Source: Elusimicrobiota bacterium
GTDB taxonomy: Bacteria; Elusimicrobiota; Elusimicrobia; UBA1565
DNA: 64,000 nucleotides
Assembly: GCA_016196755.1 (NCBI GenBank)
Contig: JACPXC010000011.1
Span: 1-64,000 of the forward strand
Direction: 5' to 3'
Shown here: positions 10,850 through 44,400 of the stretch, piece by piece
Layout of the letters: every line of letters starts with the position of its first letter
Position numbering within the stretch: the stretch's first letter is position 1
Translations under genes and position numbers: made by a program
Notes under the pieces: model-generated
Seen by the model: the letters and a program-made list of their open reading frames with translations, nothing else
The model's database searches: none
What the model was told of the DNA's origin: nothing

Positions 10850-11758
<909 letters not shown>

Positions 11759-11759
11759 G

Positions 11760-13147: not shown

Positions 13148-14658
<1,511 letters not shown>

Positions 14659-14660
14659 GG

Positions 14661-15697: not shown

Positions 15698-15735
15698 GTC
15701 GGCTCCTTGGGTATTATCGTCTAAATCAGTGCCGG

Positions 15736-15763: not shown

Positions 15764-15770
15764 CGCGGTC

Positions 15771-16061: not shown

Positions 16062-16156
16062 CTAAGTTCCTCTCTCGTTACGGCTTGCGGCCTCGCGGTG
16101 CGCCGGGCGGGCCGGGTACGACCTCGCCGGACCCGAAGGCCCGGCGGTATGCGTCA

Positions 16157-16966: not shown

Positions 16967-17337
16967 TTCGTCTTCACCATAAGCTGCCTATATTCGACCA
17001 GCAACAGCCCCAACACGCCCAACGCGTAGGCCCCCAAGAGCGGGGCCTGCAAGTCCCAACCGTCGCCCATAGCACCCGCCATCAGCGCGGCGAGGACGAG
17101 CCCGCGGAGCATGACGCCCGCGCCGAACGCGCGCATAAAATCCCTCGGCGCCCCGGCTTGCGCCGCGATGAGCAGGGCGACGCTGGCAGTCGACGCGACC
17201 CAGGCCGCGGCCAGGCCGACGAGCGCGCGGCTCCAGGCCGCGGGCTCGAGGCGCGCCTTCAGCGCCGCGGCCGCCAGAGCGGCCAGGACGCCGCCCTCGA
17301 GCGCGCTAATCGCCGTCCGGCGGAATCCCTTTGGCAC
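16963..17337 (-). CDS. AtpI-like (ATP synthase I) membrane protein
   Basis: A protein of about 124 residues with four hydrophobic segments, the size and layout of the ATP synthase subunit I family that helps c-ring assembly or Mg2+ supply. Conservation is weak, and assignment rests mostly on position directly before atpB. The GTG at 17337 is the best start; it overlaps the end of the upstream gene by 32 bases. A longer frame upstream is out-of-frame translation of that gene. Confidence 0.65.
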   Translation of the reverse strand: MPKGFRRTAISALEGGVLAALAAAALKARLEPAAWSRALVGLAAAWVASTASVALLIAAQAGAPRDFMRAFGAGVMLRGLVLAALMAGAMGDGWDLQAPLLGAYALGVLGLLLVEYRQLMVKTK

Positions 17338-17545
17338 TCTTGACCAGGATATAGAGTCCGCCGGCGAACCCCAGCGCCGTTCCCAGGAGCAGCATCGCCG
17401 GGGAGGTCCCGAGCTTGGCGTCGGCCCAGCGTCCGGCGCCGACGCCGAGCAGCATCGCCACGGCAAGCTCCAACCCCAGGCTGAGCGCCGCCCCCAAGTT
17501 CCCCCCGGGCCGTTTCGGGCTTTTCGGGTCGGAATCGCGCGTCAT
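17306..17545 (-). CDS. AtpR/ATPase gene1-like small membrane protein
   Basis: A 79-residue protein with a charged N-terminus and two membrane helices containing LGLELAVAMLLGVGAGRWAD and the GTALGFAGGLYILVK hairpin. This matches the small ATPase gene1 family found at the head of atp operons, which aids assembly of Fo. The ATG at 17545 is chosen; an ATG further upstream at 17626 adds residues with no family support. It is the first gene of the operon. Confidence 0.75.
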   Translation of the reverse strand: MTRDSDPKSPKRPGGNLGAALSLGLELAVAMLLGVGAGRWADAKLGTSPAMLLLGTALGFAGGLYILVKSAKGIPPDGD

Positions 17546-24689: not shown

Positions 24690-25349
24690 TCAGGCTTTCG
24701 CGAGGAGGTAGCCGACCCCGCGCAGGGTCTTGAGCCGCTTGCCCTGAGTCCCGAGCTTCTTGCGCAGCGCCGCCACGACCTTGTCGACGGCTTCGACGAC
24801 GGCGTCCGAGCCCAGGCGGTCGAGGAGGTCGCGGCGCTCGAACGCCTTGCCCGGCGCGCCGGCCAGCACGCTCAGGACGTCGAACTCGCGGGCGCTCAAG
24901 CCCCCCACGAGCTTCCATGACTTCCCGCGCCGGACGTGGACCTCACGCACGCGCGCGTCGAGCCTGAGGCCGTCGTCGGAGAAGAGCCCCGGGGGCTTGG
25001 CCGACGGGAACAGGCGCTTGAGGTGCGCGCGCAGGCGCGCTTCGAGCGCATCATCGGGAGCTCCTTGGTCGAAATAGTCGAGCGCCCCGCCGGCCAGCGC
25101 CGCCGAGAGGACCTGGGGTGCTGCCCCCACGTCCGCGCAGGCCACGACATGGAGCCCGGGGCGCTTGGCGCGATGGGCGCAAAGAGCATCCCCGCCCAAG
25201 AGCGACAGATCGACCAAGGCCAAGCCGCGTTCTCTAGGAAGCTCGTCTAAGCGGGACAACAGCGGGGCCGTCAGCCCCAGCGCCCGCCAAAGCCTTTCCC
25301 AGCGCGCGGCCCGCGCGCGAGGGCATACCGTCCACGTGGACAGTCTCAT
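24690..25349 (-). CDS. winged-helix regulator with degenerate receiver (motor operon)
   Basis: A 219-residue OmpR-like protein. The C-terminal winged helix (about 120-219) is well formed, with SAREFDVLSVLAGAPG, a recognition helix around VDKVVAALRKKLG and the GVGYLL wing. The N-terminal half has a receiver-like outline but no acidic pair and no switch lysine, so phosphorylation is unlikely. Its ATG overlaps the motB stop by four bases, so it is the last gene of the motor operon and may regulate it. A similar pseudo-receiver regulator is encoded at 51648-52361. Confidence 0.78.
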   Translation of the reverse strand: MRLSTWTVCPRARAARWERLWRALGLTAPLLSRLDELPRERGLALVDLSLLGGDALCAHRAKRPGLHVVACADVGAAPQVLSAALAGGALDYFDQGAPDDALEARLRAHLKRLFPSAKPPGLFSDDGLRLDARVREVHVRRGKSWKLVGGLSAREFDVLSVLAGAPGKAFERRDLLDRLGSDAVVEAVDKVVAALRKKLGTQGKRLKTLRGVGYLLAKA

Positions 25350-26035
25350 CCGCCGCGCAGGAGGCTGATCTCGATGCGGCGGTTCTTGGCCCGCCCCTCG
25401 GCCGACTTGTTGTCGCCCGCCGGCCGGTACTCGCCGTAGCCCACGCCGGAGATGCGGCGCGGGTCGACGCCGCTGGCCTCGAGCTGGCGGATGACGGCGT
25501 AGGCGCGCGCCATCGAGAGCTCCCAGTTGGACTTGTACGGCCCTTTGCGCACCGGCACGTTGTCGGTGTGACCCTCGACGCGGACCTCGTTTTTGAGATT
25601 GATCATGTCCTTGGCGATGGCCTCGAGGAGCGGCGACGCCGCCGCCTTGAGGTCGGCCTTGCCGGAATCGAAGAGCACGCCCTCGCCCAAGGACAACGAG
25701 ATGCGCTTCTCGGTGACGATGACGCTGGCGGAGGCCCCAAGCTCGCCGCCCTCGGCCTTGGCGGTCAGGGCTTGCCCCAGCACCAGCTCCTTGTCGGCCT
25801 GCTCGGCCTTCGCGGCCACGGCGGGGCTCACCCGCCCGCCGAAGACGCGCTGGATCTCGCTGAGCGACTTTTCGACCGGGTCCTGCTCCTCCACGTCCTT
25901 CGAGAGGCTAAATGAGAGCATCAAGAGGAAGAGGATCATGAGGTAGCTCATCATGTCCCCGTAGACGATGGCCCAGAGGGCGTTCTTGTTGAGGTGGCCC
26001 TCGAGCTCCTCTTTGCGGAAGCGGTAGACGGCCAT
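25346..26035 (-). CDS. motB: MotB-like stator protein with OmpA-type anchor
   Basis: A 229-residue stator subunit. A basic N-terminus precedes one membrane helix with the proton-carrying aspartate D27 (IVYGDMMSYLMILFLLM). A linker follows, then an OmpA/MotB peptidoglycan-binding domain (about 110-225) with VRVEGHTDNVPV and RISGVGYGEYRP. It should anchor a MotA ring to the cell wall and drive torque with the proton gradient. motA lies one base upstream. No flagellar filament, hook or export genes are nearby. Confidence 0.9.
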   Translation of the reverse strand: MAVYRFRKEELEGHLNKNALWAIVYGDMMSYLMILFLLMLSFSLSKDVEEQDPVEKSLSEIQRVFGGRVSPAVAAKAEQADKELVLGQALTAKAEGGELGASASVIVTEKRISLSLGEGVLFDSGKADLKAAASPLLEAIAKDMINLKNEVRVEGHTDNVPVRKGPYKSNWELSMARAYAVIRQLEASGVDPRRISGVGYGEYRPAGDNKSAEGRAKNRRIEISLLRGG

Positions 26036-26036
26036 C

Positions 26037-26774
26037 TTATTTGTAGGAGAGGAGCCTGCGCTCGAGCACCAGCGGCACGGTCCCCTGCATCATCCCGATG
26101 ACGCCTTCGACGACCATGGCCTTCATCTTGATCTCCTGCCACAGGCGCATGCGCAGCTTGCCGGCGATCGGGATGCAGAAGAGGTTCGCGAACATGATCC
26201 CGTAGAAGGCCGAGGTGATCGCCACGGCCATCGAGCCGCCGACCGCCTTGGGGTCGGCGATCTGCTGGAGGACCTTGATGATGCCGAGCAGGGTCCCGAT
26301 CAGGCCGAACATCGGCGAGACCACGCCGGCCGTGCGGATGACGTTGATGACCTCGTTGGCGCGGTCGACCTGGTTGTTGACCTCGGTCTCGAGCACGCGG
26401 CGGACGAACTCGGGGTTGTTGTACTCGAGCGCCGTCGTCGCCGCCGCTCCCAAGAAGCCCCCCGCCGCCTGGGGGTCGGCCGCCCGCAAGGCCTGCAGGC
26501 CGCCCTGCTGGACCTGCTCGGAGAGCCGCACGATGATCGGCACGAGCTCGGCCGGGTCGGCGTAGGGGTCGGACCGGAACATGTTGAGGCAGGCCAGGAA
26601 GGTGTCCTTCACGTAGACGATCGGCGTGTTGATGAGCATCGCCGCGAAGGTGCCGCCGAACACGATGAGGATCCCGTGGGCGTTGACGAAGATGGAGCCC
26701 ACCTCGCCGCTGATCACACCCAGCGCGATCAGAAATAGGATCCCCGCCGTGCCTGCGATGGTCGCTAGGTCCAT
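26037..26774 (-). CDS. motA: MotA-like stator protein
   Basis: A 245-residue protein with four membrane helices: one at the N-terminus, one around HGILIVFGGTFAAMLI, and a pair near 145-200 (VVSPMFGLIGTLLGI and MAVAITSAFYGIMFANLF). The layout is that of MotA/PomA, with a large cytoplasmic loop. In that loop the segment usually written AR(K/R)xGxLALE reads VQQGGLQALR, so the Arg and Glu that contact FliG are Gln and Arg. The start ATG overlaps the stop of the coiled-coil gene by one base. It forms the stator with the MotB encoded next. Confidence 0.9.
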   Translation of the reverse strand: MDLATIAGTAGILFLIALGVISGEVGSIFVNAHGILIVFGGTFAAMLINTPIVYVKDTFLACLNMFRSDPYADPAELVPIIVRLSEQVQQGGLQALRAADPQAAGGFLGAAATTALEYNNPEFVRRVLETEVNNQVDRANEVINVIRTAGVVSPMFGLIGTLLGIIKVLQQIADPKAVGGSMAVAITSAFYGIMFANLFCIPIAGKLRMRLWQEIKMKAMVVEGVIGMMQGTVPLVLERRLLSYK

Positions 26775-27871
26775 CAGGTCTCCCCCATTTGCCGCTTCAC
26801 CCAGGCCTGCACGAGAGCCAACTGCTTGTCGAGCTCGGCCTGCAGCTCGCTCATGCGCTTGTGCGCCGCCGCCAGCCGGCCGCGCATCTCGACGGCGGCC
26901 TCGGAGCCCTGAGGCTCGTCCTTCAAGGCCGACACCAGCCGGCTCATCTCGAGCTGGAGCGTGTCGCGCTGGCGGACACACTCTATCACGGCCTCCAGAG
27001 CCGCTTCAACAAGGAGCTGGGCCCCGCCCGAGCGTTCGAAGCGCGACGCCGAGAACGACATCTCGCGCACGAGCTCGGTCTCGCGCCGCACCGCCTCGGC
27101 GCGCTCCTTCTCGCGCGCCTTCTGGGACTCCTCGAGCCGCGCCTCCAAGTCGCCGACCCGCCCCAGGACGACCGCCAGCTGGTCGGCCGGCAGACCCGGA
27201 CCGGAGACCGGCGGCAGCGGGCGCTCGCCCGCCGCGGGCGGCTCGGGCGGCGCGGCCGCGGCGCCGAGCTGGGCTTCCAGGCGCCGGGTCAGCTCCGCGC
27301 GCGCCTCCTCGCTGTGGACCGCCCGCAGGACGTCCTCGGCCGGCACCATGCGCAGCTCGGCCAGGGCCAGGCGGGCCTCGAGCTCCTTGACGCGCTGGGC
27401 GGAGGAGGAGGCGCTCTCCCTCAAGGTCTTGTCATAGGCCGCCGCGCGCTGGGACTCGCGGATCGAGCGGAAGAGCTCCTCGACCTCCCCCTGGGCGCGG
27501 CGCTGGGCGTCTTCGCGCTCGCGCAGGAGCATCCCCGAGCGCAGGGCCTCCTGCTGGGCCATGTCGAGCTTCTTCTCGAGCAGCTCGACGCGCGTGTGGA
27601 GGAAGAGCGCCAGCTCCGTGGGCGCTTGCGGCGCCTCCGGAGCGGGCAACGCGGGCAGGGCGGGCGGCACCTCCTCGGTCGGCGGCGCCTCCTCCATGGC
27701 CGGCGGCGCCCCCTGGGCCAGCCTCTCCTCTATCGAGGCCAGCTTGGCCTTGAGCGCCTCGAACTCCGCCGAGGGTACGGCCGCCTCGCCGGGGGCGGCC
27801 GACATCGGCGGGGCCTCCTCGGGGGGGGTCTCGCCGCGCAAAGTCGCCAGGAGGCGGTCTACCTTGGCCAT
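26774..27871 (-). CDS. coiled-coil protein between rotor and stator genes
   Basis: A 365-residue soluble protein with Pro/Ala-rich stretches (about 15-90 and 205-230) separated by long charged helices likely to form coiled coils (about 90-200 and 240-360). No family is recognised. Position, four bases after the rotor fusion gene and overlapping motA by one base, argues for a structural or regulatory role in the motor, perhaps joining rotor, stator or a cytoplasmic partner. It has no FliH, FliJ or FliM signature that can be seen. Confidence 0.7.
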   Translation of the reverse strand: MAKVDRLLATLRGETPPEEAPPMSAAPGEAAVPSAEFEALKAKLASIEERLAQGAPPAMEEAPPTEEVPPALPALPAPEAPQAPTELALFLHTRVELLEKKLDMAQQEALRSGMLLREREDAQRRAQGEVEELFRSIRESQRAAAYDKTLRESASSSAQRVKELEARLALAELRMVPAEDVLRAVHSEEARAELTRRLEAQLGAAAAPPEPPAAGERPLPPVSGPGLPADQLAVVLGRVGDLEARLEESQKAREKERAEAVRRETELVREMSFSASRFERSGGAQLLVEAALEAVIECVRQRDTLQLEMSRLVSALKDEPQGSEAAVEMRGRLAAAHKRMSELQAELDKQLALVQAWVKRQMGET

Positions 27872-27874
27872 ACG

Positions 27875-30334
27875 CTATGCCGCCTGGGCCTCGGTGAAGG
27901 CGGGCGGACCGTCGAGGGCGCCGCGCCTCTCCACCGGGTTCTGGATGCGTCCCGAGCCGGCCAGCTTCATGACGACCCCCGCGATCTGCTCCTGGGCTTT
28001 GTCGATGGCTTGGGTCGTGGGCCGCGCCCCGGCGATCATCTGCTCGAGGATGGCCCAGGTCTTGGGCAGCATCTGGGCCTTGAGGCTCTCGCGCACGCGC
28101 GGCTCGCCCTCGTGGAGCGCCGCCGCCCACTGCTCGAGGCTTACCTGGCCCATGACCAGCGACCAGTCGCGCTGGTCGAGGAACGCTACGTCCTCGAAGA
28201 GCAGGACCCGCGAGCGCACCACCGCGTAGAGCTCGGGGTCGCGCAGCTCGAGGAGCGAGAGCAGGTCGCGCTTGGAGCGCATGTCGGCGGCCTCGATGAG
28301 CTCGAGCAGTTCGCGGCGGCCGCCCACCGCGCTGTCGAGGCGCCGTTCGAGCTCGTCCTTGACGGTCTGCACCACGTCGGGCTCGACGAACTTGATCGAG
28401 CCCATGCTGAGCAGGACCTCGCTGTAGGCCGCCGATGAGAGGCGGGCCAGGAAGGCCTTGCGCACCTCGGGCTTGAGATGGGCCGCGATCAGGGCCAGGT
28501 TCTCGGGCTCTTGGCCGCGCAGGATCTCGAGCAAAGTGTCGATCTGGTGCAGGCCGACGTCGAAGGTGACCTTCTGGACCTGGGCCTCGACGGCGGCCGC
28601 CGCCGCGGCGGCACCCTCCTTGTCGCCCTCCTCCCCTTCCGTGCCCTCTTTCTTCTTCTCGTCCTGGCCGAAATCCATCTGGAGCTGGTGGGCCTGGGCC
28701 TGGGCCATCGAGTCCATGGCCTCGGCGAGCTTGAGGAAGCAGGCCGCGACGACGACCAACGTGATGAGGGTCATGAGGGCGATCAGGCCGTACTTAAAGA
28801 GCAGGCCCATCGCCTCGGGCTGGTACCAGATCGTCTTCCAGGCCGGGGCGAACTTGGCCGGGGCGATGTCGAGCGTATCGTCGCGCTGGCGGTCGAGCCC
28901 CAGCACGTCGGGCAGGATCTTGGCGATGCGGTCGCGCTCCGGTATCGTCACCGACTCGTCGACGACCACGGTGATGGCCAGGCGCTTGACGAAGGAGGTT
29001 GGGAAGGACTGCTGGCGCTCGTAGGACTTGGTCTGCCCGAAGCCGGGGGCCTGGGCCTGGGGGTCGGGGATGCCGGGCAAGAGCTCCTGGCCGCCGGGGC
29101 TTTCGGCGCCGATGTTCTGCCAGAGGAACACCGAGCCCGCGTCCTTGTCGGCCGCCCCGCCGGTCTTCACGTCGAACTTCTCGATGCGCGTGAAGTCGAG
29201 CGTGGCGTTGACGATGACGCGCGAGCGGCTCGGCCCCAGGATCGAGAGCAGGACCGACTCGGCCCGCGCCTCGAGCGAGCGCTCGAACTTGGCCTTCTCC
29301 TCCAAGGGGATGGTCTGCTGGGCGCGCGCCGCGCCGCCCAAGGAGGCCAGCAGCCCCAACGCCAGGACGGCGGAGGCGGCCAGGACGGGCATGCGGGCGG
29401 GCTTGAGCGGCACCTTGTACCAGAAGGTCGAGCCCTTGCCGAGGCCCGGCGAGTCCACTCCGATCTCGCCGCCGTGGCCGCGGACGATCTCGGTGGCGAT
29501 GGCCAAGCCCAGGCCCCAGCCCTTCTTCTTGTTCTTCATGTCCTGGAATTGGGACTGGTAGAACTTCTCGAAGACCTTCTTGCGCTCGGAGGGATGGATG
29601 CCGGCGCCGTTGTCCTTGACCGCCAGAGTCAGGACGCGCCCGACGACCTTGGCGCCGAGCTCGACCTTGCCGCCCGACGGGGTGAACTTGACCGCGTTGT
29701 TTAGGAAGTTCATGAGCGCCTGGACCAGGCGGAAGCGGTCGCCGACGATCTCGACCGGGGGGACGACGGCCGGCGGGACCAGGACCACCCCGTTCTGCCT
29801 GGCGATGACGTCGATGGCCGGGACGATGTCTTCCAGCATCTGCGCCAAGGGAAACGGCTTGCGCTCGAGGCGCAGCTTGCCGGCCTCGATGACGGCGAGG
29901 TCGGTCAAATCGCCCATGAGGCGGTTTATCTGGTCGGTGCCGCGTACGATGTAGTCGACGTACTTCTTCTGCTGGCCGCCCAGCTCCTGGCGCGAGAGCA
30001 TCTCGCCGAAGCCCTTGATCGAGGCCAGCGGCGTGCGCACGTCGTGGACCGCCATGGACAGGAACTTAGATTTCATCGAATTCAAACGCTCGAGCTCCTC
30101 GTTGGAGTCCTGCAGGCGCGCGGAGAGCTTCTCGAGCTCCACCTTGCGCCTGGCGACCTGGCTCTGCGCCATAGCGAGCTTGGTCATGAACTGTTCCAGT
30201 TCCTCGCGGTCTCGGCGCCGCCGGCCCGAGTACTTCCCGAACTGAAAGAAGCCCGAGAGCTGGCTCACGACCAGCATGCTCGCCGCCAGCACCAGGAACA
30301 TCACCGGCAGAAGGACGACGATGACTACCTCCAT
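27875..30334 (-). CDS. sensor histidine kinase fused to FliF-C and FliG-like domains
   Basis: An 819-residue protein with three modules. Residues 5-30 are a membrane helix; 45-310 a histidine kinase with H97 (VHDVRTPL), N-box LNNAVKF, DNGAGI and GWGLGLA. A second hydrophobic helix (315-338) looks like a signal peptide. Residues 345-500 match the FliF C-terminal periplasmic region (KRLAITVVVDE and the following helix), then a membrane helix (511-534). After an acidic/Ala linker, 597-700 match FliG middle domain and 705-770 FliG-C (LLFEDVAFLDQR). The FliF N-terminal ring domains and the FliF-binding FliG-N are absent. The topology is consistent throughout: kinase inside, FliF part outside, FliG inside. 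A GGAGGG ribosome-binding site precedes the ATG. An internal ATG at 29392 could also yield the rotor part alone. Confidence 0.85.
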   Translation of the reverse strand: MEVVIVVLLPVMFLVLAASMLVVSQLSGFFQFGKYSGRRRRDREELEQFMTKLAMAQSQVARRKVELEKLSARLQDSNEELERLNSMKSKFLSMAVHDVRTPLASIKGFGEMLSRQELGGQQKKYVDYIVRGTDQINRLMGDLTDLAVIEAGKLRLERKPFPLAQMLEDIVPAIDVIARQNGVVLVPPAVVPPVEIVGDRFRLVQALMNFLNNAVKFTPSGGKVELGAKVVGRVLTLAVKDNGAGIHPSERKKVFEKFYQSQFQDMKNKKKGWGLGLAIATEIVRGHGGEIGVDSPGLGKGSTFWYKVPLKPARMPVLAASAVLALGLLASLGGAARAQQTIPLEEKAKFERSLEARAESVLLSILGPSRSRVIVNATLDFTRIEKFDVKTGGAADKDAGSVFLWQNIGAESPGGQELLPGIPDPQAQAPGFGQTKSYERQQSFPTSFVKRLAITVVVDESVTIPERDRIAKILPDVLGLDRQRDDTLDIAPAKFAPAWKTIWYQPEAMGLLFKYGLIALMTLITLVVVAACFLKLAEAMDSMAQAQAHQLQMDFGQDEKKKEGTEGEEGDKEGAAAAAAAVEAQVQKVTFDVGLHQIDTLLEILRGQEPENLALIAAHLKPEVRKAFLARLSSAAYSEVLLSMGSIKFVEPDVVQTVKDELERRLDSAVGGRRELLELIEAADMRSKRDLLSLLELRDPELYAVVRSRVLLFEDVAFLDQRDWSLVMGQVSLEQWAAALHEGEPRVRESLKAQMLPKTWAILEQMIAGARPTTQAIDKAQEQIAGVVMKLAGSGRIQNPVERRGALDGPPAFTEAQAA

Positions 30335-30386: not shown

Positions 30387-31946
30387 TCACTCGACCCCCT
30401 GGGCGCTCATGAACGCCTTGAGCTTCTCGTCGCCCGGGTTGATCTCGAGCGCCTTCTTCCAAGCCGCGGCGGCGCGCGGCTTGTCGCCCATCGCGAAGTA
30501 GGCCGAGCCGAGCCGCGTCCAGGCCGCCGCGTTGTTGGGCTCGAGCCACAAGGCGTCCCGCAGCGACTCGACGGCGGCCGGGAAGCGCCGCTGGTAGACC
30601 GCGTCCACACCCTGCTTCATGCGCAGGGCCGCCAGGCGCGCCGGGGGCAGGATCGAGTCGCGGTCTACCTTGCGGCCGGTGAGCCGGCCCATGGCGTCTA
30701 GCAGGCGGCGGTAGCCGGCGTGGCGGTTGATGGTCCCGGCCGCGGCGTGGGCCAGGAGCATGGCCCGGTCCTCCTCGCCGTCGAGCCAGGCGCTGACGAC
30801 CTGGTAGACCATGAAGGCCGCCGGGTTGTCCTGGCGGAAGGACTCCTGGTCGCCCGGATGGGCCTCGAGGTCGAGCTCCTTGACGAGGCGCCGCAGGCGC
30901 GCGGCGCGCTCCTTCCAGGACCCGTCGCCGACGTTGGGGTCGATGCCGAGCGCGGTGTCGAAGTCCTTGGAGGCGCGCAGATAGTCGCGCTTCTGGAGTT
31001 CGCTCTGGCCGTTGGCCAGGTACTCTCCGGCGAAGGCCTGCATCTTGGGCGACTTGCCCTCGGCCAGGGCCTGGCGCTGGCCGAAGCGATAGCCCACCGA
31101 GAGGCGCTGGGACATCCCGAGCGTCGGGTGGCTCAGGAGCGCCAGGTCGAAGCGGTACTTGGAGCGGAAGTGCAGGCCGCCGCCGAAGGAGAGCTGGCGG
31201 TCCTCGAGGCCGGCGCGCAGGGCGCCGATCCCCCAGGCGTACTCGGTGCCGACCCGGAACTCGCCGTCGGGCGAGACGTCGGCCGCCAGCGAGAGCGGCC
31301 CCACGAGGCGGTAGGCCGCCCCGACGCGGACCACCAGCCCCAGCTTGTCGTCGGTGTCGCCCTGCGAGAGCGCGAAGGCGTTTTGGACCACCGCGCCCAG
31401 CATGAGCTTGCCCGTGTTGAACGGCCCGGCCTGAAAGCCCAGGTCCGCGCCGATGAGGCGGTCCGAGGAGCCGGCCAGCGCGCGATTGAGCATCTTGCCC
31501 TTCACCCCGACCGAGAGCGCGGGATGGAAGACCCCGCGCCAGCCGTGGGCCACGCTCATCGCCGTCTCCGACCAGCCGAAGCCCCCGCTCTTGTTGTTGA
31601 GCTCGTCGCGCCCGTCGGCGCCCGAGATGCCGAGCCGGACGAACTCGAGGCCCCAGCCGCCGGCGCGCTTCTTCTTGTTCTGGGCGTAGCCCAGGTAGTC
31701 GTAGGTGGCGCCCTCGAAAAGGTTGGCGCGCATGAGGGTGACTTCGCGCGCGGGCAAGAGGCCCAGGCCGGCGGGGTTGTAGTAGACCGAGGTGACGTCG
31801 TTGACGCCGGCGGTGTTGGCGCCGCCCATGGCCAGCCCGCGGGCGTTGGCGCCGAACTGGAAGATCTCGCCGGGGCGGCCGCCGAGGTCGGCGCGGGCGG
31901 GCGCGGCGACGAGGACGGCGAGCAGGGCGGCGAGCACGCGGCGCAT
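30387..31946 (-). CDS. PorV-like outer-membrane beta-barrel with C-terminal TPR domain
   Basis: A 519-residue exported protein. Signal peptide 1-19; then a PorV/PorQ/FadL-like outer-membrane barrel (about 25-310) with the typical ANARGLAMGGA and YYNPAGLGLL motifs; then helical TPR-like repeats (about 325-515), for example AAWTRLGSAYFAMGDKPRAA. In Bacteroidota PorV shuttles type IX cargo to the attachment complex, so a role in exporting FlgD-Ig-tailed proteins is suggested. The start overlaps the stop of the stand-alone FlgD-Ig gene by one base. The TPR part would lie in the periplasm or at the surface. Confidence 0.8.
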   Translation of the reverse strand: MRRVLAALLAVLVAAPARADLGGRPGEIFQFGANARGLAMGGANTAGVNDVTSVYYNPAGLGLLPAREVTLMRANLFEGATYDYLGYAQNKKKRAGGWGLEFVRLGISGADGRDELNNKSGGFGWSETAMSVAHGWRGVFHPALSVGVKGKMLNRALAGSSDRLIGADLGFQAGPFNTGKLMLGAVVQNAFALSQGDTDDKLGLVVRVGAAYRLVGPLSLAADVSPDGEFRVGTEYAWGIGALRAGLEDRQLSFGGGLHFRSKYRFDLALLSHPTLGMSQRLSVGYRFGQRQALAEGKSPKMQAFAGEYLANGQSELQKRDYLRASKDFDTALGIDPNVGDGSWKERAARLRRLVKELDLEAHPGDQESFRQDNPAAFMVYQVVSAWLDGEEDRAMLLAHAAAGTINRHAGYRRLLDAMGRLTGRKVDRDSILPPARLAALRMKQGVDAVYQRRFPAAVESLRDALWLEPNNAAAWTRLGSAYFAMGDKPRAAAAWKKALEINPGDEKLKAFMSAQGVE

Positions 31947-32326
31947 CAGTGCCGGACCCCCACCTTGAGGACCAGGACGTCGCCGCCGGCGCGCAGGGCC
32001 GCTAGGTAGATCCCCTTGCCGAGCTTGCGGCCGGTCTCGTTGGTGCCGTCCCAGGTGACCTCGTTGAGCCCCGCCCGCCCGCCCACGGCGCCGGCCGCGT
32101 ACGAGCGCCGCAAGACCCGGACGCCGAAGACGGTGTAGACCGAGAGCTCGGCCGGGAAATCCTCGGCCAGGCGCCAGCGCAGCGTGGCGCGGCCGGTCCG
32201 GGAGTCGAAGGGGTTCGGATAGCTTGCCGGCTCGGTGATGAAGTCTGCGCGCTTGGGTGTGGTGAACGCCGCCACCGGAGCTAGGGCCAAGGCCGCGGAC
32301 GCCGCCGCAGCCCATAAGATGCGCAT
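31946..32326 (-). CDS. stand-alone exported FlgD-Ig (type IX-like C-terminal) domain
   Basis: A 126-residue protein: signal peptide (about 1-21), then a single FlgD-Ig-like domain with YPNPFDSRTG, LSVYTVFGVRV, VTWDGTNETGRKLGKGIY and the ending VLKVGVRH. The giant protein upstream ends with the same domain (YPNPFDSRKR, WDGADDSGTKVAKGMY, LKVGVIH). Here it is not attached to any cargo, which is unusual for a sorting tail. It shares a promoter motif with the giant gene and is coupled to the PorV-like gene. It may act as a competitor, cap or sensor for the export machinery; that is inference. Confidence 0.82.
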   Translation of the reverse strand: MRILWAAAASAALALAPVAAFTTPKRADFITEPASYPNPFDSRTGRATLRWRLAEDFPAELSVYTVFGVRVLRRSYAAGAVGGRAGLNEVTWDGTNETGRKLGKGIYLAALRAGGDVLVLKVGVRH

Positions 32327-32390: not shown

Positions 32391-32413
32391 AAGCGCTGTA
32401 TTTACTAGCGCTT
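32391..32413 (-). terminator. terminator of the giant gene
   Basis: On the minus strand, AAGCGCT, a nine-base loop, AGCGCTT and further T residues. The left arm overlaps the TAA stop of the giant gene. Stem of seven pairs, short T-run. Confidence 0.5.
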
Positions 32414-35400
32414 AATGGATGACGCCGACCTTCAGAACCGCCTTGGCCCCGCCCGAGGTGATGACCATGATGTACATGCCCTTGGCCACCTTGGTCCCCG
32501 AGTCGTCGGCGCCGTCCCAGGCGACGGTGTTGGAGCCCGCCACGCCGCCGCTTGAGCCCGGCGCGAAGCTCATCTCGCGCAGCAGCCGCCCGAAGACGCT
32601 GTAGACCTTGATCGACACCTCGGCGTTAGCACTCAGCGCGTAGTGGATGTTCCCCGCGCGCTTGCGCGAGTCAAACGGGTTCGGGTAGAGGCTGGCGTCG
32701 GTGATCCCGTCCTTGGGCAAAGGCCCGAGCTGGACCTGCACCGGGTCGCTGGCGCTCGAGAGCACGCCCGAGCCGGTGACCGCGCTGACGCGCACAAACA
32801 GAGTCCCCGCCGGCAGACCGCCGGCTTGGAACGAATTGCTCGTGACGAGCGAGTCGGTCGACACCGCCAGGACGCGCAGCTCGGCCGGCCTGGCCCCGGG
32901 GGCGGCCGCCAGCGTCATCGCTTTCACGCTGGTCTTCTCGCCGGTCTTCGCGTTGATCCACTGCGGGCTGGCGCCGGTGCGGTACTCGACTAGGTAGCCG
33001 ATGATGCCCGAGGGGCCGCCCGGGATGTTGGCCCAGGTCACGAGCAGAGCGCCCGAGCCCGTCGTCACCGACGGGGCCGGAGAGAGCGGGACCTGGAAGT
33101 CCATGAGGATGCCGTCGGAGACCCCGACCGGGCTGTCGAAGGCGAAGCTCGACTGGGTCTTCACCGCGACGTAATATGTGGTGGCCTGGTTGAGGGCGAA
33201 GCCCGTGGCGCGCACCGTGGTCAGGGCGGCCGCGATCGCCGTCCAGCCGCGCACGTCGGTGCCGCCGGCCGTCGTCCCCACCGCGTAGAAGGCCCCGGCC
33301 AGCGTGCCGCTGCCCACGCTCGATACCCAAGTGAAGTCGAGGCCCTCGAAGTCGCTCGTCGAGGCGCCGGCGTCGGTCACCACCGGGCGCGAGGGGGTCT
33401 TGGCGTCGAGCACCGGAGCCGCGCCGGTGTTGAACGGCAAGCCGGCCGCCCCCACCGTGTCCGGCGAGCCCAGGGTGAAGTCGGCGGTCTGCAGCGAGAG
33501 CCGGATGTCGGCGCCGACCGTGGCCGAGATGTTGGGCTGGACGGCCAGGAAATAGGTCTGGGTCGCCACCCCCACCGTCTGCACCGTCGAGAAGAAGACC
33601 GAGGCCTGCGAGCCCGAGAACGTGGCGCTGCCCACGTAGAGGTCGGCCGAGCCAAGCGCCAGATCGCCGTCCACGTCGCGCCAGACGCCGACGAAGTCGA
33701 TCTCACCGGCGCCGAGGTTGCCGTTCTGGCGCACGACCAGCGCGCTCCAGCTCACGCGGTTGCGCGACGCCCTAGTCGAGAGGCGCGCCAAGGCCTGGCG
33801 CGCGCCCTGGTTGACCCCTCCCACCACCAGGTCGGCCGGCGTCACCACCAGCTCCTCCTCGAGCTTGCGCAGGGTAGCGTTGGCATCCGACTGGGCCGGG
33901 AAGCCCGCGGGCACGACGAAGTTGGGCGAGGAGACGCTCAAGGACGCCGTCGACTGAAGAAGGACCGCGAAGGTGCGGCCGGGCTCCGCGAACGGCGCCG
34001 GGTCGACGGTGAGGAGGTAGCGCTTCTGGCTGGTGCCCACGTCCTGGACCGAAGCGAAGCTCAGGACGGCGACGCCGCCCAGGAAGGCATTGAGGCCCGA
34101 GGTGATCTTGGTGTCGGTGCCGACGTCGACGACGCCGTTGATGTTCGCGTCGTGCCAGAGGCTTATGGCCTTGATGTCGGAGTCCGCGGCGCTCCCGGTC
34201 GAGCGCACGGTCAGGGCGGACCAGGTCAAGGCGAACTGGGTCGTCTGCACGGCCAAAGACATCAGCACCTGCTCGGTGGCGGCCTGCTTGAGCTCGCCCG
34301 GCGCGAGGTTCGTGGCCGTCACGAACAGGCCGGCCTGCGTGGCGACCACGGCCGCGTTGGTCGACTGCAGCGGGAAGCCCGCGGTGGAGACCGTGTCGGG
34401 CGTCTCGACGCGCAGGTCGCCGGCCGCCGCGATGCGCGCCCCCGCGGTGTCGCCCGCGGTCGCCGTGGTCTTGAAGTCGTAGGTGACGAAGTAGGTGACC
34501 GTGGCGACGGTGATGGTCTGGGTCGAGAAGCCCAGGAGGGCGGTCCCGCCGCTGAACACCGTCGTGCTAAGCCGCTCGTCGAGCGAGATGTCGAGCGTGC
34601 CGTCGCCGTCGGCGTCGCGGTAAAGCTTGACCGACGGCACGTGGCCGTCCTGGCCCGTGCCGGTCCGCGTCACGCGCAACTGGTTCCAGCGCGCCGTGAA
34701 GGCCGCCGTGCGGACCTTCAAGGTCAGCATCGGCACGTTCGGGGTCCCCTGGGTGACCGTCGCCGGAGCCGAATCGGTCCCTACCACGAACATCGTCGTG
34801 GGCGGGGCGTTGACGTTGAGCGCCGCCGACACGAAGTTCACGCTCGGGTCGACCCGATTCGGCGCGTCGACCGTGAAGAAGGCGCCGGTCGAGGCGCGCA
34901 CCACGACCGTGCGCGCGGGGACGGCCGCCGTGGAGAGGTCGAGGACGAGGAAGTAGCGCTTCGGCGCGGTCCCCAGGACCTGCGGGGTCGAGAACGACAC
35001 GACCACGCTGGCCGGGCCGTTGCTGCCGAAGCGCTGGCCGGAGGAGGTCACCAGCAGATAGTTGTTGAGGTTCGAGGAGTCGAAGTTCCCCGTGTCGTTG
35101 GTGTCGTAGTAGAGCTTGACCTGCTTGACGTCCGCGTCGGCCGCGGTGCCGGCCTGGTCGACGCGCAGGCTCTGGAACGCGGCGTTCGAGACGTCGGTCC
35201 GCAGCGCCAGGCTCATAAACGGCACGTCGATGGCGCCGGGCTCCGCGCCGACGCCGGGGACGACGCTGGCGGTCGTCACGGTGACCGTGTTCTGGAACTG
35301 GTTGACCGGCACGAGGCCGGTCTGGATGGGGAAGGCCGTGGCCGTCGAGACCGTGTTGGGCGCGATGAGGTTGAAGGAGGCCGTCGTCGAGATCCGCACG

Positions 35401-38400
35401 CCGAGGGTCTTGCCCGACTCCGCACCCGCCGCCACGCTCAGGGTCACGAAGTAGGTCTTCGTCGAGGCCGAGACGGTCTGGACCTGGGGCAAGGTCAGCG
35501 TGGCCGTGCTGTTGGAGAAGACGTCGGCGCCCCCCGTCACCCGCGAGTCCACGGCGACGTCGAAGGAACCGTTGCCGTCGAAGTCCCGGAAGACGTTCAC
35601 GGCCGAGACCGCCGAGTCGGGGGCGGTCCCCAGGCGCTCCACCGAGAGGCCCAGCCACGAGAAGTCGTTCTTGTCGCTGATGACGTCGAGCCGCAGCATC
35701 GCGGCGTGCTGCTGGCCCTGGAGCAGCGCGCCGGGGGAGACGTCTTTGATGGCGTTGGTGATGACCATCCGGTTGACCGTGGCCTGTACGGTTCGCGAGG
35801 AGCTCTCGATCGGGAGGTTGCCGGCCACGGTCGTGCCCGAGTTGCCCGCGCGCACGTCGCCGGCGTTGAGCTTCATGCCCAGCGTCACCCCCGGCGCGGC
35901 GGCGGGCTCGACGACGTAGGCCAAAAAGAACACAGCACTCGTCCCGGAGAGTATGGTCTGGGTGTCGATGTCGACGACGGCCAGGCCGCCCGAGTAAGGT
36001 GCTGAGCCGACCCGCGTGTCGAGCACGGCACTCAGACCCTGCCCGTCGGTCGTCGCGTCGCGCCAGACCTCCACCGCCGCGATGTCGGAGCCCTGCCCGT
36101 TGCCGGTCAGCCGGGCGGTGACCCGGTTGACCTGGGCCGCACCCACGTCGACGGTCATCGTCGCCCGCAGGATGGTGAAGCGCTCGCCCTGGACGTAGGC
36201 TGCCGGGGTCTCATCGACCGCGGCCACGGTCAGGACGTTGTTGAGGATGACGCTAACCGTGCTCGAGAGCACGGCCGCCGAGAACGCCACGGTGTCGGCC
36301 AGGTTCTGGAGCGTGACGGCCGAGGTCGAGGCCAACCCGAGGCGGAAGACACTGTCCTGAGGGGCGTCCGCCGCCAGGCTGACGGTGATAAAGAAGCGCC
36401 GGGCCGACGTCGTCACCGTCCGCGAGGAGACCTGAAAGCCCGTGATCGACATCGTCGCGGTGTTTCCTCCCCCGAAGGCGTCGATGTCGCTGGTGAGCCT
36501 GATGTCGCCGGGGCCGAAAAGGCCGTCGACCGGGTCGGCGTCGCGCCAGAGGTTGATCGAGCGAACCTTGCTCGGCGGCGTCGTGCCGGTCATCGTCACC
36601 GTGACGCTCGATATGATCGAGGTCCCGGTGTCGGTGACGGCGCGCAGTTCTAGTACGGGGATATCGTTGCTGCCGGCCTGCATCGCGGCCGGGGCCAAGC
36701 TCGTGGGGATGATGTTGAGGACGTTGGCGCCGTCCGAGACCGGGATGGGTGCTACGACGGCCGGGAAACTGCCCTGAGCGCGCGCCGGGTGCTGGAGGCC
36801 GACGCTGGTCGTCGAGCTTATCTCGAGCCCCACGGTGTCGTCGGTGACGGCCCCGGCGTTCATCTTGAAGACCACGTGGAACGTGCTGGCCGCCACGTCG
36901 AGCGGGATCCCGGCCCCGGCGAGGACGAGCACGGCCTCGCCCAGCGCGAGGCCGGCCGCGGTCTGCTGGGTGTCGCCGCCCGAGAACACCCCGTCGCCGT
37001 CGGCCTCGGCGTAGAGCTGGACCTGGTCGACGCTGGAGTCGGGTGCGGTCCCGGTCTTGCGCGCGCGCAAGGACAGCAGGCGCGAGGTGCTGCCCGGCTT
37101 GGAGGCCAGGCGCAGGGTCAGCATCGGGACGAAGGCGCCCTGCAGGGCCGAGGGCGGCGCGGCGATCTGGGTGGTCAGGAACACCGTCCCGAAGGTGGCC
37201 GTGGCCAGCTCCACCGTGGGGGTCGAGACGTTGAGCAGTTGGTCGCGCGACCAGACCCGCACCCAGTAGGTGGTGGCGTCGATCAGGCCCGTGAAGGTAT
37301 AGGTGGTCTGGGCGATGAATCCCGAGGAGGACAGCGGGGCGGCGAAGGCCTGTGACGTGGAGGCCTCGAAGAGGAAGTCGCGCAGGCCCGAGCCGGCCGT
37401 GTTGTCGGTGCCCGTCGAGATCACCGCGATCTGGTCGGTGGCGGTGGGGGCCAGCGAGAGGACGACCGGCGTGGGCACCGATGTGTCGACGCGCACCGCG
37501 AAAGGACCCATCGTCCGGACCGAACCGGCGCGGTCGGGAGCGAAGAACTGGACCTGGTTCGTGGCCAGGCAGGGCGAGACCTGGCCGCAGACCGCCGTCA
37601 CGGTCGACTGGCGCAGGGGGAGACCGACGATCTGGATCGTCTCGTCCGAGGTCGCGCCGTTATTGCCCGTGAACGCCAGGCGCGGCCCCGCCCCGAAGGT
37701 CGAGGAGACCGCGCTCCAGGAGGCCCCGGCGTCGGTGGAGAACGCCACCGCGAAGGGGGCCCCGTCGGCCTCGCGGCGGACCGCGGCGGCCGAGAGCGGC
37801 GCCGAGAAGAGCCGCACCTCGTCGAGGAAGCCCTCGTAGGCGTCGATCGAGCCGATCCCGGTCACCCCGTCGGCCAAGAGGCGCAGGCGGGTGTCGCCGG
37901 CCGAAGACGCCCCCGAGCAGGAGGCCGCCAGCTCCCCATCGACGTAGAGGCGGTTCTCGTTGGCGCCGGGGTCGGCCACGAAGGCCACGTGCTGCCAGGC
38001 CCCCAAGGGATAGGTCTGCGCCGTGTTGAGCGCGCAGCCGCCGGCACCCGTGGCGCGCGCGCCGTAGAGCACGCGGCCCTGGGCGGACTGGGCGTAGACC
38101 TGGTTGCGGACCGTGGCAAAGAGGGTCATCAGGGCCGAGGCGTTCCGCGTGGGCTTGGCCCAGCCGGCGACCGTGAGGCCGGTCCAGGTCGTCGCCGGGG
38201 AACTAGCTATATTGACCGCGAAGGTCCCCGAGCCGCGCAGGCCGAGGCCCCGGTAGCCGGAGCCGGAGCGGACGATGGCCGCGTCGAGCGTGGCGTTGTG
38301 CCCCCGCCCCGAGAAGTCCAGCGACGACGTGCCCGAGTCCTCGAACGACCAGGCCCCGACCCGGGCCTGGCTCCCCAACGGCTCCAAGAGCAGGCCGGAG

Positions 38401-41400
38401 GCCGGGTCACGCACCGTGAACTCGATGGTCGAGCCGGCCGCCAGGTCGGTGAACTGCGACTCGGCCAACGCCCCGCCGGTCGAGTTGAGGTGGCGATAGG
38501 CGCTAGTCGAGGGTGCGGCGGGGTCGACGGCGAAGTTGACGGTCGGGGAGAACGCCGAGCCCACCGAGAAGGCGTTGAGCGCCTTCACGCGCCAGTAGTA
38601 GGTCGTGTCGTTGGCCAAGGACGCCGTGGCACCCAGCAGGTAGTGGGCGGTCGTCTGGTTGATCGTCAGCGCCGTGAAGTCGGGGCCGGTCGACACCTGG
38701 ACCTGGTGCTGGGGCATCGTGCTGGCCTCGATCCAGGCGAAGTCGGGCAGGGTCTCGCGGACCCAGCGCGCCGGGGCCGGGTAGTAGGCCGTGGGCTGGC
38801 TCAATAGGCTGTCGACGAGGACGGCGAAAGGGCCGGCCTGGCCGACCCGCCCGCCGCGGTCCAGCGCCGCGAAGCGCACCTGGTTGGTGGCCGTGCAGGA
38901 GGGGTTGCCCGCGCAGACCGTGCCGGTCAGCGAGGGCTCGAAGCTCAGGCCCGAGGCCGAGAGGGTCTGGGGCGCCGCGCTGCCCTCCGCCCCGCTAAGC
39001 GAAGTGACCAGCGGCGTCGACACGAACACCTCGGCGTTGCCGGAGGCGGGCTCGAGTCCGGCGTAGAGTCGGCCGCCGAAGGCGGCCAGGGCGCTTATCT
39101 TGTCGGCGGCGTTGGGCAGAGTGCGGACCAGGACCCAGCTCTTGGCGTCATAGGCGTAGAGCCGGCCGTTGGACGGCTCGGCGCTGGCCGCGTAGAGCCG
39201 GCCGGCGTGCACGGTCAGGACCGAGGACTCGGTCTCGGGCGGGTCGTTGGAGACCGTCCAGGCTTGGCCGTCGAACTGGCTGATGATGCCGGAGTTGTTG
39301 GTGGCCGCGAACAGCTTGCCGTCGTAGGCCTTGAGCGCGAGGATCGACGCGCTGGCGGTGAAGGAGAGGCTCCAGGTGCTCGTGTCGAGTACGTAGACGT
39401 TGGGATTGGCCCCGGCGAAGAGCCGGCCGTCATATACTCCCAGCGACTGCACGCCCACCCCCGGGGGCGCGGCGAAGACGTGCAAGAGCTCCCAGCGCCC
39501 GTTGGAGGGTTCGTACTGCATGAGGCGCCCCGAGCTCAGACCGGCATAGAGCCGCCCGTTGTAGGCTTCGAGGGTCTGGACGTCGTCGGGGGCCGTAAAG
39601 CTGGCCGACAGGCTCCAGGCCGCGCCGTTGAACTCCCAGACCTGGCCGTTGGCCGACAGGCCGGCGTAGAGCTTGCCGCCGAAGGCCTTGAGGGCCAGGA
39701 CCCTCTGCGCCCCGAGGGTCGTCGAGAGGGCCCAGACGCTGCCGTCGAACCGCCAGACCCGGCCGGTGTCGGCGCCCATGAACAAGGCACCCCCGTAGCG
39801 CGCCAGGGAGCGCGCCGCGGTAGCCCCCGCGTCGGTCAGCGTGGGGCCCCAGGAGCCGTCGTTCCAGAGCCCGGCGCCGTTGGTCGTGTACATCACGCCA
39901 TAGGGGACGGCGTCGTCGAGCTCGGCGTGGGCCAGTCCCGCCGGGCCGGTGTCCTGCACGGTGAGCTGGACCGTGACGCCGGCGGCCAGGGTGATGCCGA
40001 TAGACTCGCCGACGAGGCCTCCGGTCGAGTTGAGCGAGGCGAAGGCCGAACCGGCCGGCGCCAAGTAGTCGGTGACGAAGCTCGACACCGTCAGCGGCTG
40101 GGAGTAGATCCCCAGGAAGTCCCGGGCGCGCACGCGCCAGTAGTAGGTCGTGCCGTGGAGCAGCGAGAAGGTCGAGACATAGACCCCCTGCGTGAAGGCC
40201 GTGGCCGTGCCGGCGATGACGACCGGCGTCGACACCGCGATGGCGGGCGAGGAGAAGTCGGCTTGGTCGTCGGCCTCGAGCAGGAACAGCGCTCCGGCCC
40301 CCATCCCGGCCGCGGTCGTCGTGCTGGGGCCGCCCCAGGCGAAGTCGGGACGGGTGCTCACGAAGACGCCGGGGGCCGGCAGGGTCGGAGTCGACACCGC
40401 CGCGGCGGCCACGGTGTCGACGAGCAGCGTGAAGGGGCCCGCCAGCGTGAAGTTGCCGCGCCGGTCCGCCGACAGGAAGCGCAGGAGGTTCGTGCCCAGG
40501 GAGCCGACGGCCGCGGTCGTGGAATGCGCCGGCGCCAGGTCGCGGACCGTGAGGACTTCCGGTCCGGCCGAGCCGTCCACCCCGGTCTGCGCTATATAAG
40601 GGAAGCCCGCGCCGGGGAAGGTGGCGCTGACCACGTTCCAGGCGGCCCCGGCCGTCGTCGAGTACTCCACCGCGAAGCGCCCGGGGACGCCGCGGGCGAA
40701 GTCCGCGGCCACCTCGTCGGGTCCGGAGGCGGTGGAGAACACCTTGACCTCGTCTAAGTCGCCGTTGAAGAAGGCTTCGGCCACGGCGGTGTTGCGGATG
40801 CCGGCTCCGACCGAGAACGCCATCGTCCCGCCGCCCGAGTTGCCGCTCCAGCCTTGGGAGTGGCGCAGGACGCCGTTGATGTAGAACCAGGCCTTGGTGC
40901 CCTGCTGGACGACGGTGACATGCTGCCAGACCCCGTTCTGGATAAGGCCGGCCGGGCTCAAGACCCCGCCGCCGGTGGCGTTGGTCAGGCGCAGGGCGCC
41001 GGTGTTGTTGACCCAGACAACCCAGTTGCTTCCGCCCGGCGTCAACGGCGCGCCGACGGCGGCCAGCACCTGGTTGACGGAAGCCGTGGGGCGGACCCAA
41101 GCCGAGACGGTGAAGGTCGAGGCCGGGGCGAACTGGAAAGCCGTGTTGGGCGCCGACATGTACTGCCCCGCTCCGCTCAGGGCCAGGCCGGCCCCGAAGG
41201 GCGTGAGTCCGTAGCGCCCGCCCACCAGCACGCCGACCGCACCCGCCGCCTCATCGAGCGGCGCGGCCCCGTGACGCTCGCTGAAACGCCAGGACGCCGC
41301 CGTCCCGGGACCGACCGTCAGAGCGTTGGCGGCCCCGAGGCCGCTGACCGTGTCGGCGGCCGTGACCTGGACCGTGACGCCTTGGCGCAGGTCGATCGGG

Positions 41401-44400
41401 CCGGTCTCGCTGAAGGCCCCGCCCGTCGAGTTGTAGACGAGGAAGGATGAGACCGTCGGCGAGGAGGTGTCGACCACAAAGCCCCCGACCGGCCCCCAGG
41501 CTCCATCGACCCCCAGCGAACTCCGCGAGCGCACCCGCCAGTAGTACGTCGTGCCCCCGGTCAGCGTGAAAGTCGAGAGGTAGACCCCGGTGACGCGGAC
41601 GAAGGCGGGGTCGGTGACCGCGGCCGGCGTGGCGACGCTGATGACGAGGCTGGGTGCTGCGAAGGCCGGGTCGGCGCTCGACACCTGCACGAAGAACTGG
41701 CCGCCCATGCCCTGCACCACGCTCGTCGACGGTCCAGTCCAGTAGAAGTCCGGGCGCGTGCCGGTGTAGCTGCCCGGCGCGGGAAGGCTGGGCGTGGAGA
41801 AGGCCACCGAGGCGTTGGTGTCGACGAGGACCGCGAACGGGCCCATCGTCCTCACGTTGCCGGCCACATCGGCGAAATGGAAGCGCGCCTGGTTCGTGGC
41901 CGAGCCCCCGGTCTGGGCCGAGGTCGAGACCGCCAGCGACAGGCCCGAGGCCGAGAGGGTCTGGTTCCCCGTGGCGCCGTGCGCGCCGGTCAGGGCCGCG
42001 TAGGGCCCCAGAGCCGGGACCGTCGAGTTGATGACGACCCAGGAGGCGCCGGCGTCACTCGAGAAGCTGACGTAGTAGGGGTCGCCGCGCAGCGCCGAGG
42101 CGGCGATTTCGGCGTCGGAGAACGCCCGCGCGCTCACGCGCGCCTCGTCGATGGCGCCGCGGAAACCTTGGCCCGCCTCGTTGTTGCCGATGGTTAGCGT
42201 CCCGGCCGCCGAGGCCTGGGCGCCGTAGGTCTGCGAGGCGACGCGGACGCCGTCGAGGTAGAAGCGTCCGACCGAGCCGTCGTAGGTGAGGGCGACGTGG
42301 TGCCAGACCCCGGTGCTGACCGCCGCCGACGTGGGGGTCGACGCGCAGCCCAGGTCCGCCCAAAGACGGCCGCCGAGGAGGCCGAGGCGGGTGGCGCTGC
42401 CGCAGGCGCCGTCGCTCCAGGAGACCGCCGCCTGCGTCCCCGAAGTCGAGACCGTGTTGATCCAGGCCTCCAGGGTACGCGCGGCGTTGCCCACCGGCAG
42501 TCCCGCGGGCGCGGCGCGCTGGGCGAAGGAGGCGGCGTCGAGCAAAAGCCCCGCGCCGAAGCGCCCGGGCCCCCGGCCCGGGGTCCCCGAAGCCGAGAGG
42601 GCGTTGCCCGCCGGACCCGAGTCCGCCCAGTTCCCCGAGGTCTCGTCGAGGTGCCAGAGGCTGACGGCACCGCTCGACGGGGCGTAAGGGGCCGGGCCGT
42701 CCACGTTGAGACCCGAGACGGCGTCCGAGACGACGAGCTGGACCGTGACGCCCGCCGCCAGGTCGCCGAACTGGGTCTCGGCCACCGCCCCTCCGGTCGA
42801 GTTGAGACTCAGGTAGGAGCCCCCGACCGGGACGGTGCGGTCGAGCCAGAACGGCCCCAGGTCCGTCTGGAGGCCGGGGTCGTCGAAGGTATCGAAGGCG
42901 CGCGCGTGGAAGTACCAGTTGCTGTTGTCGGAGGCAGCCGTCACCGTGGTCTTCCCGGAGCTCCAGGCCGGCAGCTCGCCGCCGTCGACCGCGCTGGCCG
43001 GCGACTGGTCCCAGCGCCAATGCAGGTGGTCGATGTTGCCCGAGCCGAAGGCGGCCCGGAACACCACCGAGGAGACGTTGAGCCAGGTCCCGCTCGAGGT
43101 GTCGGCCGAGACCAGGGCCTGGGCGGCGACGATCGGCGCCGTCCCCGAGGCCAGCGGGAAGACCGAGGCCGAGACCGTGTCGGTGGCCCCGGAGAGGACG
43201 AACTCGGCGCTCGAGACCAGGACGACGCCGATGTCGGCCCCGGTCTGGGCCGAGACCGAGACGTTCCAGGCCAGGAAGAAGGTGCGGGTGGAGGGGCTCA
43301 GGGTCTGGGAGGTCCCCGCCCCGGAGAGCGAGAAGGTGGCCTTGCCGAGCAGGAAGGACTGCCCCAGGGTCAGCGCGGTGTCGGACCCGGCGTTGAAGAG
43401 CCCGTCGCCGTCGTCGCGGTAGAGCTTGAGCTGGCTGACGCTCGAGGCCGCGGCCGTCCCGGTGGCGGCCACCGAGAGCTGGTCGAGGGTGATGAAATCT
43501 CCCCCGGTCCAAAGCCGCAGGCGCATGACCGCCACGTTCTGGTCGTTGCGGAACAGGGCCGGCGGCAAAAGCGGCGCGGCGTCGGCGAATAGGGTATCGC
43601 GCGCGTCGGTGAGCGCCGTGCCGGTCGAGCGCGCGTAGCCGGCCGCGCCCCCCTGGAGCGTACCGTCGATCCCGCTTATAGAGGAGTCCACGGCGCGGTT
43701 GGCCACGACCGGCGCGTCGAAGTGGTAGAGCACGAGAGCGCCGCTGGCCGTGTTGCGGCGCAGCGGGGGCAGTTCGGCGGGATAGCGCACGAAGGCCGTG
43801 AGGCGCGCCTCGTCGAGCTCGCCGATGAAGTAGGAGGCCACGCCCGAGCCGTTGGGCCCGCCGACCGCCAGGTCGCTGGCGCCGTCGGCAAGGGTGCCGC
43901 CCATGGCGCCTGAGTTCATCGGCACGCCGTCGACAAACAGCCGGCCCACGCCGGCGTCGAATACCGCGGCCACATGGTGCCAGCGGCCGTCGGTGACCGA
44001 TACCTGGCCCGAGCCGTTATCGGCGCAGAGCACGGAGGAGCCCACGAAAAAGCTCGGCACGCCCGCGGAGCAGCCCCCGGCGCCGAGCCACAGCCGGTAG
44101 CCCGCGTCGCCGCCGGCGTTGCCGCGGGTGATGACGGCCATGTTCGCCCGCGCGGTGTCGGTCGAGCGAAGCCAGGCCTCGAGGGTAAACTGGCCGATCC
44201 CGCCCAAGTCGAGCGCGGCGGCGTAGGGCGCGGTGACCCGGTCGTCGACGCCGTCGAAGGCCAGGGCCGGGAGGTCGGTCTGCTCGACGCCCGCCCCGCG
44301 TACGCGTACCGCCTCGCCGTCTAGGTGCAGCGCGATGGAGGCGCCCTCCACCGGGAGGAAGTCCGGCCGGACGGTCGCGCCGACGAAATAGGTGCGGGTC

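Follow-up and report, generated by a model that had tools for sequence, protein, structure and literature searches.

A flagellum-derived rotor and stator gene set linked to a putative type IX surface-protein module in Elusimicrobiota

Movement of the giant adhesin SprB, bound to its own barrel SprF, is powered by the GldLM motor (PMC8986121, PMC9143113), and in Flavobacterium GldLM both exports and moves SprB (PMC8986121). In Myxococcus, the AglRQS gliding motor reuses a stator of the MotAB/TolQR type for surface movement (PMC8986121); a FliF/FliG rotor is not known to be part of it. A natural FliF-FliG fusion is described from Chlamydia, a non-flagellated bacterium; it comprises part of an SctJ-like region and only the middle domain of FliG, lacks RBM3 and coexists with FlhA (PMC4768692). 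A 2025 survey notes orphan rotor proteins and offers no explanation for them (PMC12199754), and a survey of MotAB makes no mention of Elusimicrobiota (PMC12505986). No published description of FliG or of a type IX secretion system (T9SS) in this phylum was found in the open-access literature, subscription papers being outside the scope. Here we analyse a gene run from an Elusimicrobiota bacterium, located in a stretch of 64,000 nucleotides (contig JACPXC010000011.1, positions 1 to 64,000; hereafter the window), in which a fused FliF-FliG rotor and a MotAB stator follow genes for an outer-membrane barrel and a giant surface protein. The source genome (G000; 4.59 Mb in 67 contigs, estimated as 100% complete with 2.74% contamination) was considered within a sample of 199 Elusimicrobiota genomes, and 46 non-flagellar rotor loci were read.

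An earlier note on the window, made from the letters alone, described a minimal rotary-motor operon of five tightly packed genes. All five are intact and closely packed at 24690-30334 on the minus strand, as that note had it, and the order is kept in relatives. The extent of the set has to be revised, since the run continues past 30334 on the same strand with a partner module that the note had not seen. The whole run reads in one direction, in the following order (CTD, C-terminal domain).

32412..49664, minus strand: giant surface protein of about 5750 aa (Pfam; CTD alignment; best CTD match in the genome)
31946..32326, minus strand: small secreted protein of 126 aa, essentially a stand-alone FlgD_ig/T9SS-like CTD (Pfam, NCBIfam, alignment)
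30387..31946, minus strand: PorV-family outer-membrane beta-barrel with a C-terminal helical TPR domain (PorV-TPR), 519 aa (NCBIfam, model, Foldseek)
27875..30334, minus strand: rotor of 819 aa, composed of a histidine kinase, the FliF RBM3/collar, a transmembrane helix and the FliG middle and C-terminal domains (Pfam, PDB match, AlphaFold, Foldseek)
26774..27871, minus strand: coiled-coil-like protein without assigned family, 365 aa (Pfam/NCBIfam noise only; synteny)
26037..26774, minus strand: MotA stator subunit, 245 aa (Pfam; alignment)
25346..26035, minus strand: MotB stator subunit of 229 aa with proton-site Asp27 and a peptidoglycan-binding OmpA domain (Pfam; alignment)
24690..25349, minus strand: OmpR/PhoB-type regulator, 219 aa, with a diverged receiver half (Pfam; NCBIfam)

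The rotor gene encodes the predicted kinase-FliF-FliG arrangement in a single frame. Pfam recovers HisKA (6.8e-17), HATPase_c (1.1e-23), FliF_C (2.5e-07), FliG_M (1.6e-09) and FliG_C (6.9e-16), with the histidine kinase part occupying residues about 40-320. The rotor half aligns with the solved FliG structure 1lkv in a PDB sequence search (3e-16). An AlphaFold model built from 28 related rotors has a mean pLDDT of 79.8, and Foldseek matches it to FliG structures (3e-11) and, separately, to the RBM3/collar of the Salmonella MS-ring 6sd1 (1.8e-05). Neither Pfam, the model nor Foldseek detects FliF RBM1-2 in the rotor; only the FliF_C family is found and the N-terminal FliF/YscJ family is not, and on this basis the predicted ring consists of FliG and a collar of the S-ring type. 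In addition, the FliM-binding EHPQ motif of the FliG middle domain is lost in all 28 aligned rotors, which, judged from the alignment, fits the absence of FliM. The in-frame fusion of kinase and rotor recurs in two other genomes (L064, L070), which rules out a sequencing artefact. The rotor frame of one further genome, G135, is 1220 residues long (L081:7717-11379) and has PorV-family genes on either side.

The stator retains hallmarks of MotAB, namely the proton-site Asp, the MotA channel prolines and the peptidoglycan-binding domain. MotA matches MotA_ExbB (3e-23) and its P154 and P202 are invariant in 32 homologues, and MotB matches MotB_plug (1.4e-08) and OmpA (1.6e-20) and its D27, which the earlier note had singled out as the proton aspartate, is kept in 92% of 38 aligned MotBs. 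In loci with two MotBs, the second copies (L054:7673-8326, L080:11941-12684) appear to have this Asp replaced, hinting at possible asymmetric stators. The 365-aa coiled-coil-like protein has no Pfam or NCBIfam match above noise, and proteins of similar style are encoded in most rotor loci. The regulator listed in the earlier note is of the OmpR type by its Trans_reg_C domain (1.9e-12), but Pfam does not recognise the receiver domain, which has diverged too far.

The window had been found to contain no rod, hook, FliM/FliN or export gene, and this holds for the entire genome: no FlhA, FliMN_C or Flg_bb_rod was found in G000, nor a hook, in searches that did not cover flagellin and FliI separately. 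The rest of the genome thus does not supply the full set of flagellar genes that would have contradicted the note's reading, and the type III injectisome export gate FlhA/SctV is likewise not found in G000. The genome contains six FliG_C genes, corresponding to six rotor loci, one of which is the window set. Across the phylum, FliG_C occurs in 60 of the 199 genomes and FlhA in a single one (G032), whose FliG is an ordinary separate protein of 355 aa; the other 59 genomes carry FliF-FliG rotors in one to six copies, all without FlhA. Among the phylum genomes FliMN_C exceeds its cut-off in G032 alone, and Flg_bb_rod is found there and as a stray match in G100. The G032 locus on contig C2 (L082, L014), with FlhA, FliMN, rod/hook and separate FliG, is the sole true flagellar locus of the sample. 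Outside the phylum, one pattern-based scan with subtype A (described below) was made, in which every named match belongs to Elusimicrobiota. The proposal that a rotary motor has been reused for a role other than swimming is therefore well supported.

The CTD giant and the PorV-TPR barrel directly upstream of the rotor indicate a link with the outer membrane and with type IX secretion. PorV-TPR matches the PorV family model NF033709 (2.6e-17, under the curated cut-off). Its structure model (pLDDT 85.3) consists of a barrel and a long helical-repeat domain, and Foldseek relates it to the T9SS translocon chains 6h3i_F and 8gl6_F, but also to FadL-type channels. In 37 of the 46 loci, a PorV gene is found no more than three genes upstream of the rotor, and all 37 of these rotor-linked PorVs possess a C-terminal extension of 169-335 residues. 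Of the 19 rotor-unlinked PorVs in this genome, 18 lack it, giving p about 9e-14 for linked versus unlinked PorVs overall and 6e-4 within this genome. The extension may act as the coupling element between rotor and barrel. Rotor-PorV and rotor-MotA distances correlate (Mantel r 0.92). The lone unlinked PorV with the extension belongs to an operon with a kinase and a response regulator and no rotor. This set, which comprises a CTD giant, a small CTD protein, PorV-TPR, kinase and response regulator, lies at L223:11315-13999 and L212:1091-5501 and is possibly a rotor-free variant of subtype C.

The giant has a signal peptide-like start, FG-GAP_3 repeats, lectin-like Laminin_G_3 domains and a FlgD_ig-type CTD ending in KVGVIH. 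The small CTD protein matches FlgD_ig just under the Pfam cut-off (3.8e-05), together with weak NCBIfam matches to the PorU C-terminus/TIGR04183. Pairs of CTD and PorV genes are common in G000, which contains about 25 PorV genes and about 25 FlgD_ig-type CTDs, mostly as CTD-PorV neighbours, with weak matches to TIGR04183. Four of the PorV genes are rotor-linked. The best-scoring CTDs of the genome adjoin rotors, in a profile partly built from those same CTDs. Further CTD frames, of 5,900 to 10,886 residues and mostly directly before a PorV gene, occur on contigs C25, C14, C38, C33 and C37, and the gene order suggests about 20 pairs of giant protein and PorV in this genome.

A candidate translocon for these proteins is present as well. 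An SprA-like protein encoded beside lptFG-like genes was picked up with SprA_N, and the phylum homologue matches TIGR04189 with 2.8e-51 and 174 bits (cut-off 200). With a phylum SprA profile, 167 of the 199 genomes are positive, including G000 (C22) and all 60 FliG-positive genomes. The SprA gene adjoins genes for LptF/LptG-like permeases phylum-wide (L095, L097, L098, L101, L105, L107 and others; the copy of this genome at L222:4520-10036). GldM was found in none of the 199 genomes, in a search without positive control, and GldL in none above the cut-off; diverged forms of both could escape. About 107 genomes have SprA and no FliG, which indicates that the translocon is not motor-dependent everywhere and that the rotor supplements particular surface-protein sets; a need of the rotor for all T9SS export is not supported.

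The rotor loci fall into several subtypes. Subtype A is ordered as PorV-TPR, rotor with a cytoplasmic TPR, coil, FlbD, MotA and MotB, and has the best preserved torque helix of FliG. Its FlbD is certain (1.2e-22), and the position beside MotA-MotB marks flagellar ancestry. The window belongs to subtype B, in which the kinase is fused to the rotor here, in L064 and in L070, and separate in a sister genome (L062). Two kinases characterise subtype C, whose MotAB pair is transcribed divergently. In subtype D a single MotA is accompanied by two MotBs, and in subtype E the rotor stands near groES-groEL without MotAB. Two genomes of the family contain such E-like rotors (L011:7607-9004, L061:8867-10267) on a very long branch. 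Loci of the most widespread subtype (L007, L044, L072 and others) contain no kinase gene. The rotor tree separates the subtypes as clades, each spanning several genomes and conserved across families, with a support of 100/99 for the window clade; a number of deep branches are long and of uncertain order. In one close pair, dN/dS is 0.05-0.14 for rotor, MotA, MotB and PorV; a second pair gives 0.18-0.26 for rotor and MotA. By these estimates the rotor and stator genes are under purifying selection. Apart from the motor locus, the window contains an ordinary-looking ATP synthase gene cluster nearby, at 10850-17466.

Taken together, we consider it probable that PorV-TPR couples a flagellum-derived, ion-driven motor to giant surface proteins exported by the T9SS, and that this motor either moves them or drives their export. 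Chains of FliF RBM3/collar and FliG would form a ring in the inner membrane, and peptidoglycan-anchored MotAB would drive this ring with the ion gradient, as supported by homology and structure models. The periplasmic collar would then act on the periplasmic TPR domain of the dedicated PorV-type barrel, and this barrel would hold the giant protein that the SprA (type IX) translocon has delivered. This step draws support from the linkage of the genes, their shared inheritance and the association of the TPR domain with the motor. Finally, the torque might shift the giant protein along, or on, the surface of the cell, for gliding, adhesion or contact with a substrate, or might pull its export. 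The giant, with its lectin-like Laminin_G_3 and FG-GAP domains, would be the load. In subtype B, the rotor-fused histidine kinase may tie the state of the motor to gene control, or the reverse. Since Flavobacterium GldLM serves both purposes for SprB, either output is plausible here; movement seems to us the likelier one, given that elsewhere in the phylum export has to proceed without rotors.

Several observations weigh against this reading. The FliG torque helix and the facing MotA charges have diverged in the subtype of the window, as seen in alignments. On the T9SS side, the matches for PorV, CTD and SprA are genuine, yet most of them score under the curated cut-offs of the Bacteroidota models, and the roughly 107 SprA-positive genomes without FliG count here as well. 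PorV is missing in front of some rotors (L009, L011 and L074 types), and conversely the PorV-TPR operon of L212/L223 has a kinase but no rotor. The Mantel correlation is also expected from joint operon inheritance, and the contact between rotor and PorV-TPR, like the function, is proposed from genome evidence.

Among the alternatives, the motor could power T9SS export itself in place of GldL/GldM (PorL/PorM), rather than moving surface proteins. The presence of SprA in every FliG-positive genome, the failure to detect GldM, or GldL above cut-off, and the role of PorV as a translocon partner in T9SS all agree with this idea, which we nevertheless regard as rather unlikely: in the many SprA genomes without FliG export must work rotor-free, a rotor link exists for just 4 of the roughly 25 PorV genes of G000, and the GldM search had no positive control. 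Less credible still is a surface or load sensor, in which rotor and stator would report the mechanical load that the giant protein bears, to be converted into gene expression by the OmpR-type gene and the rotor-fused kinase. The fusion in three genomes, the kinases adjoining rotors in several other subtypes, the apparently intact kinase motifs and the regulator within the same gene run would suit such a sensor, which is improbable given the diverged receiver and the kinase-free loci of the most widespread subtype; the latter make sensing an add-on. A decaying remnant of a lost flagellum with no present role could account for FlbD beside MotA-MotB as a relic of flagellar gene order, but it is very hard to maintain, and a pseudogene or relic is ruled out by conserved catalytic residues and dN/dS, as well as by frames that are intact in 59 genomes, with one to six copies each, and by new conserved partners. 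A split locus of a normal flagellum, its other genes missed in a draft assembly of 67 contigs, deserves practically no credence in view of the whole-genome and phylum searches, the estimated completeness, FlhA never occurring in a rotor-bearing genome, the lost FliM-binding motif and the rotor without FliF RBM1-2.

The coupling of the motor to PorV-TPR and giant surface proteins would give a concrete, testable answer in one phylum, with conserved partners, a distinctive domain as candidate for the coupling, and a load predicted at the outer membrane. The flagellar and the type IX gliding motors, so far studied separately, would thereby be joined. The set also shows that a rotor ring can be retained where the export apparatus normally housed in it is missing. 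It could, in addition, offer a minimal natural rotor-stator for structural work. We see an even chance that an engine of flagellar rotor and stator that lacks export gate, switch and filament, turning against PorV-TPR/SprA to drive giant surface proteins phylum-wide, constitutes an unrecognised class of machine, in which a flagellar motor would have been converted to gliding or to the driving of surface proteins.

Compared with the bacterial flagellar motor, the locus shares the FliG middle and C-terminal domains, the FliF RBM3/collar, MotA, and MotB with the proton-site Asp and peptidoglycan-binding domain, and in subtype A also the FlbD-MotA-MotB order. It differs in the FliF-FliG fusion, the undetected RBM1-2, the lost EHPQ and the absence of FliM, FliN, export gate, rod and hook, as well as in the linkage to PorV-TPR and CTD giants. 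With the GldLM/SprA/SprB/SprF system of Bacteroidota it has in common the SprA-type translocon, a CTD giant with its own barrel partner and an ion-driven inner-membrane motor (PMC8986121, PMC9143113), and the neighbouring CTD and PorV genes resemble the SprB-SprF pairing (PMC9143113). Here, however, GldL/GldM are undetected and a flagellar rotor ring with MotAB takes the motor position, while the barrel is PorV-like with TPR instead of PorP/SprF-like. Unlike the Chlamydia fusion, the rotor keeps RBM3 and both FliG domains, and is accompanied by MotAB without FlhA; with Myxococcus AglRQS, the reuse of the stator is shared. The part families are known, but no machine known so far joins a FliF/FliG rotor free of gate, switch and filament to a PorV/CTD set, as the putative one proposed here would.

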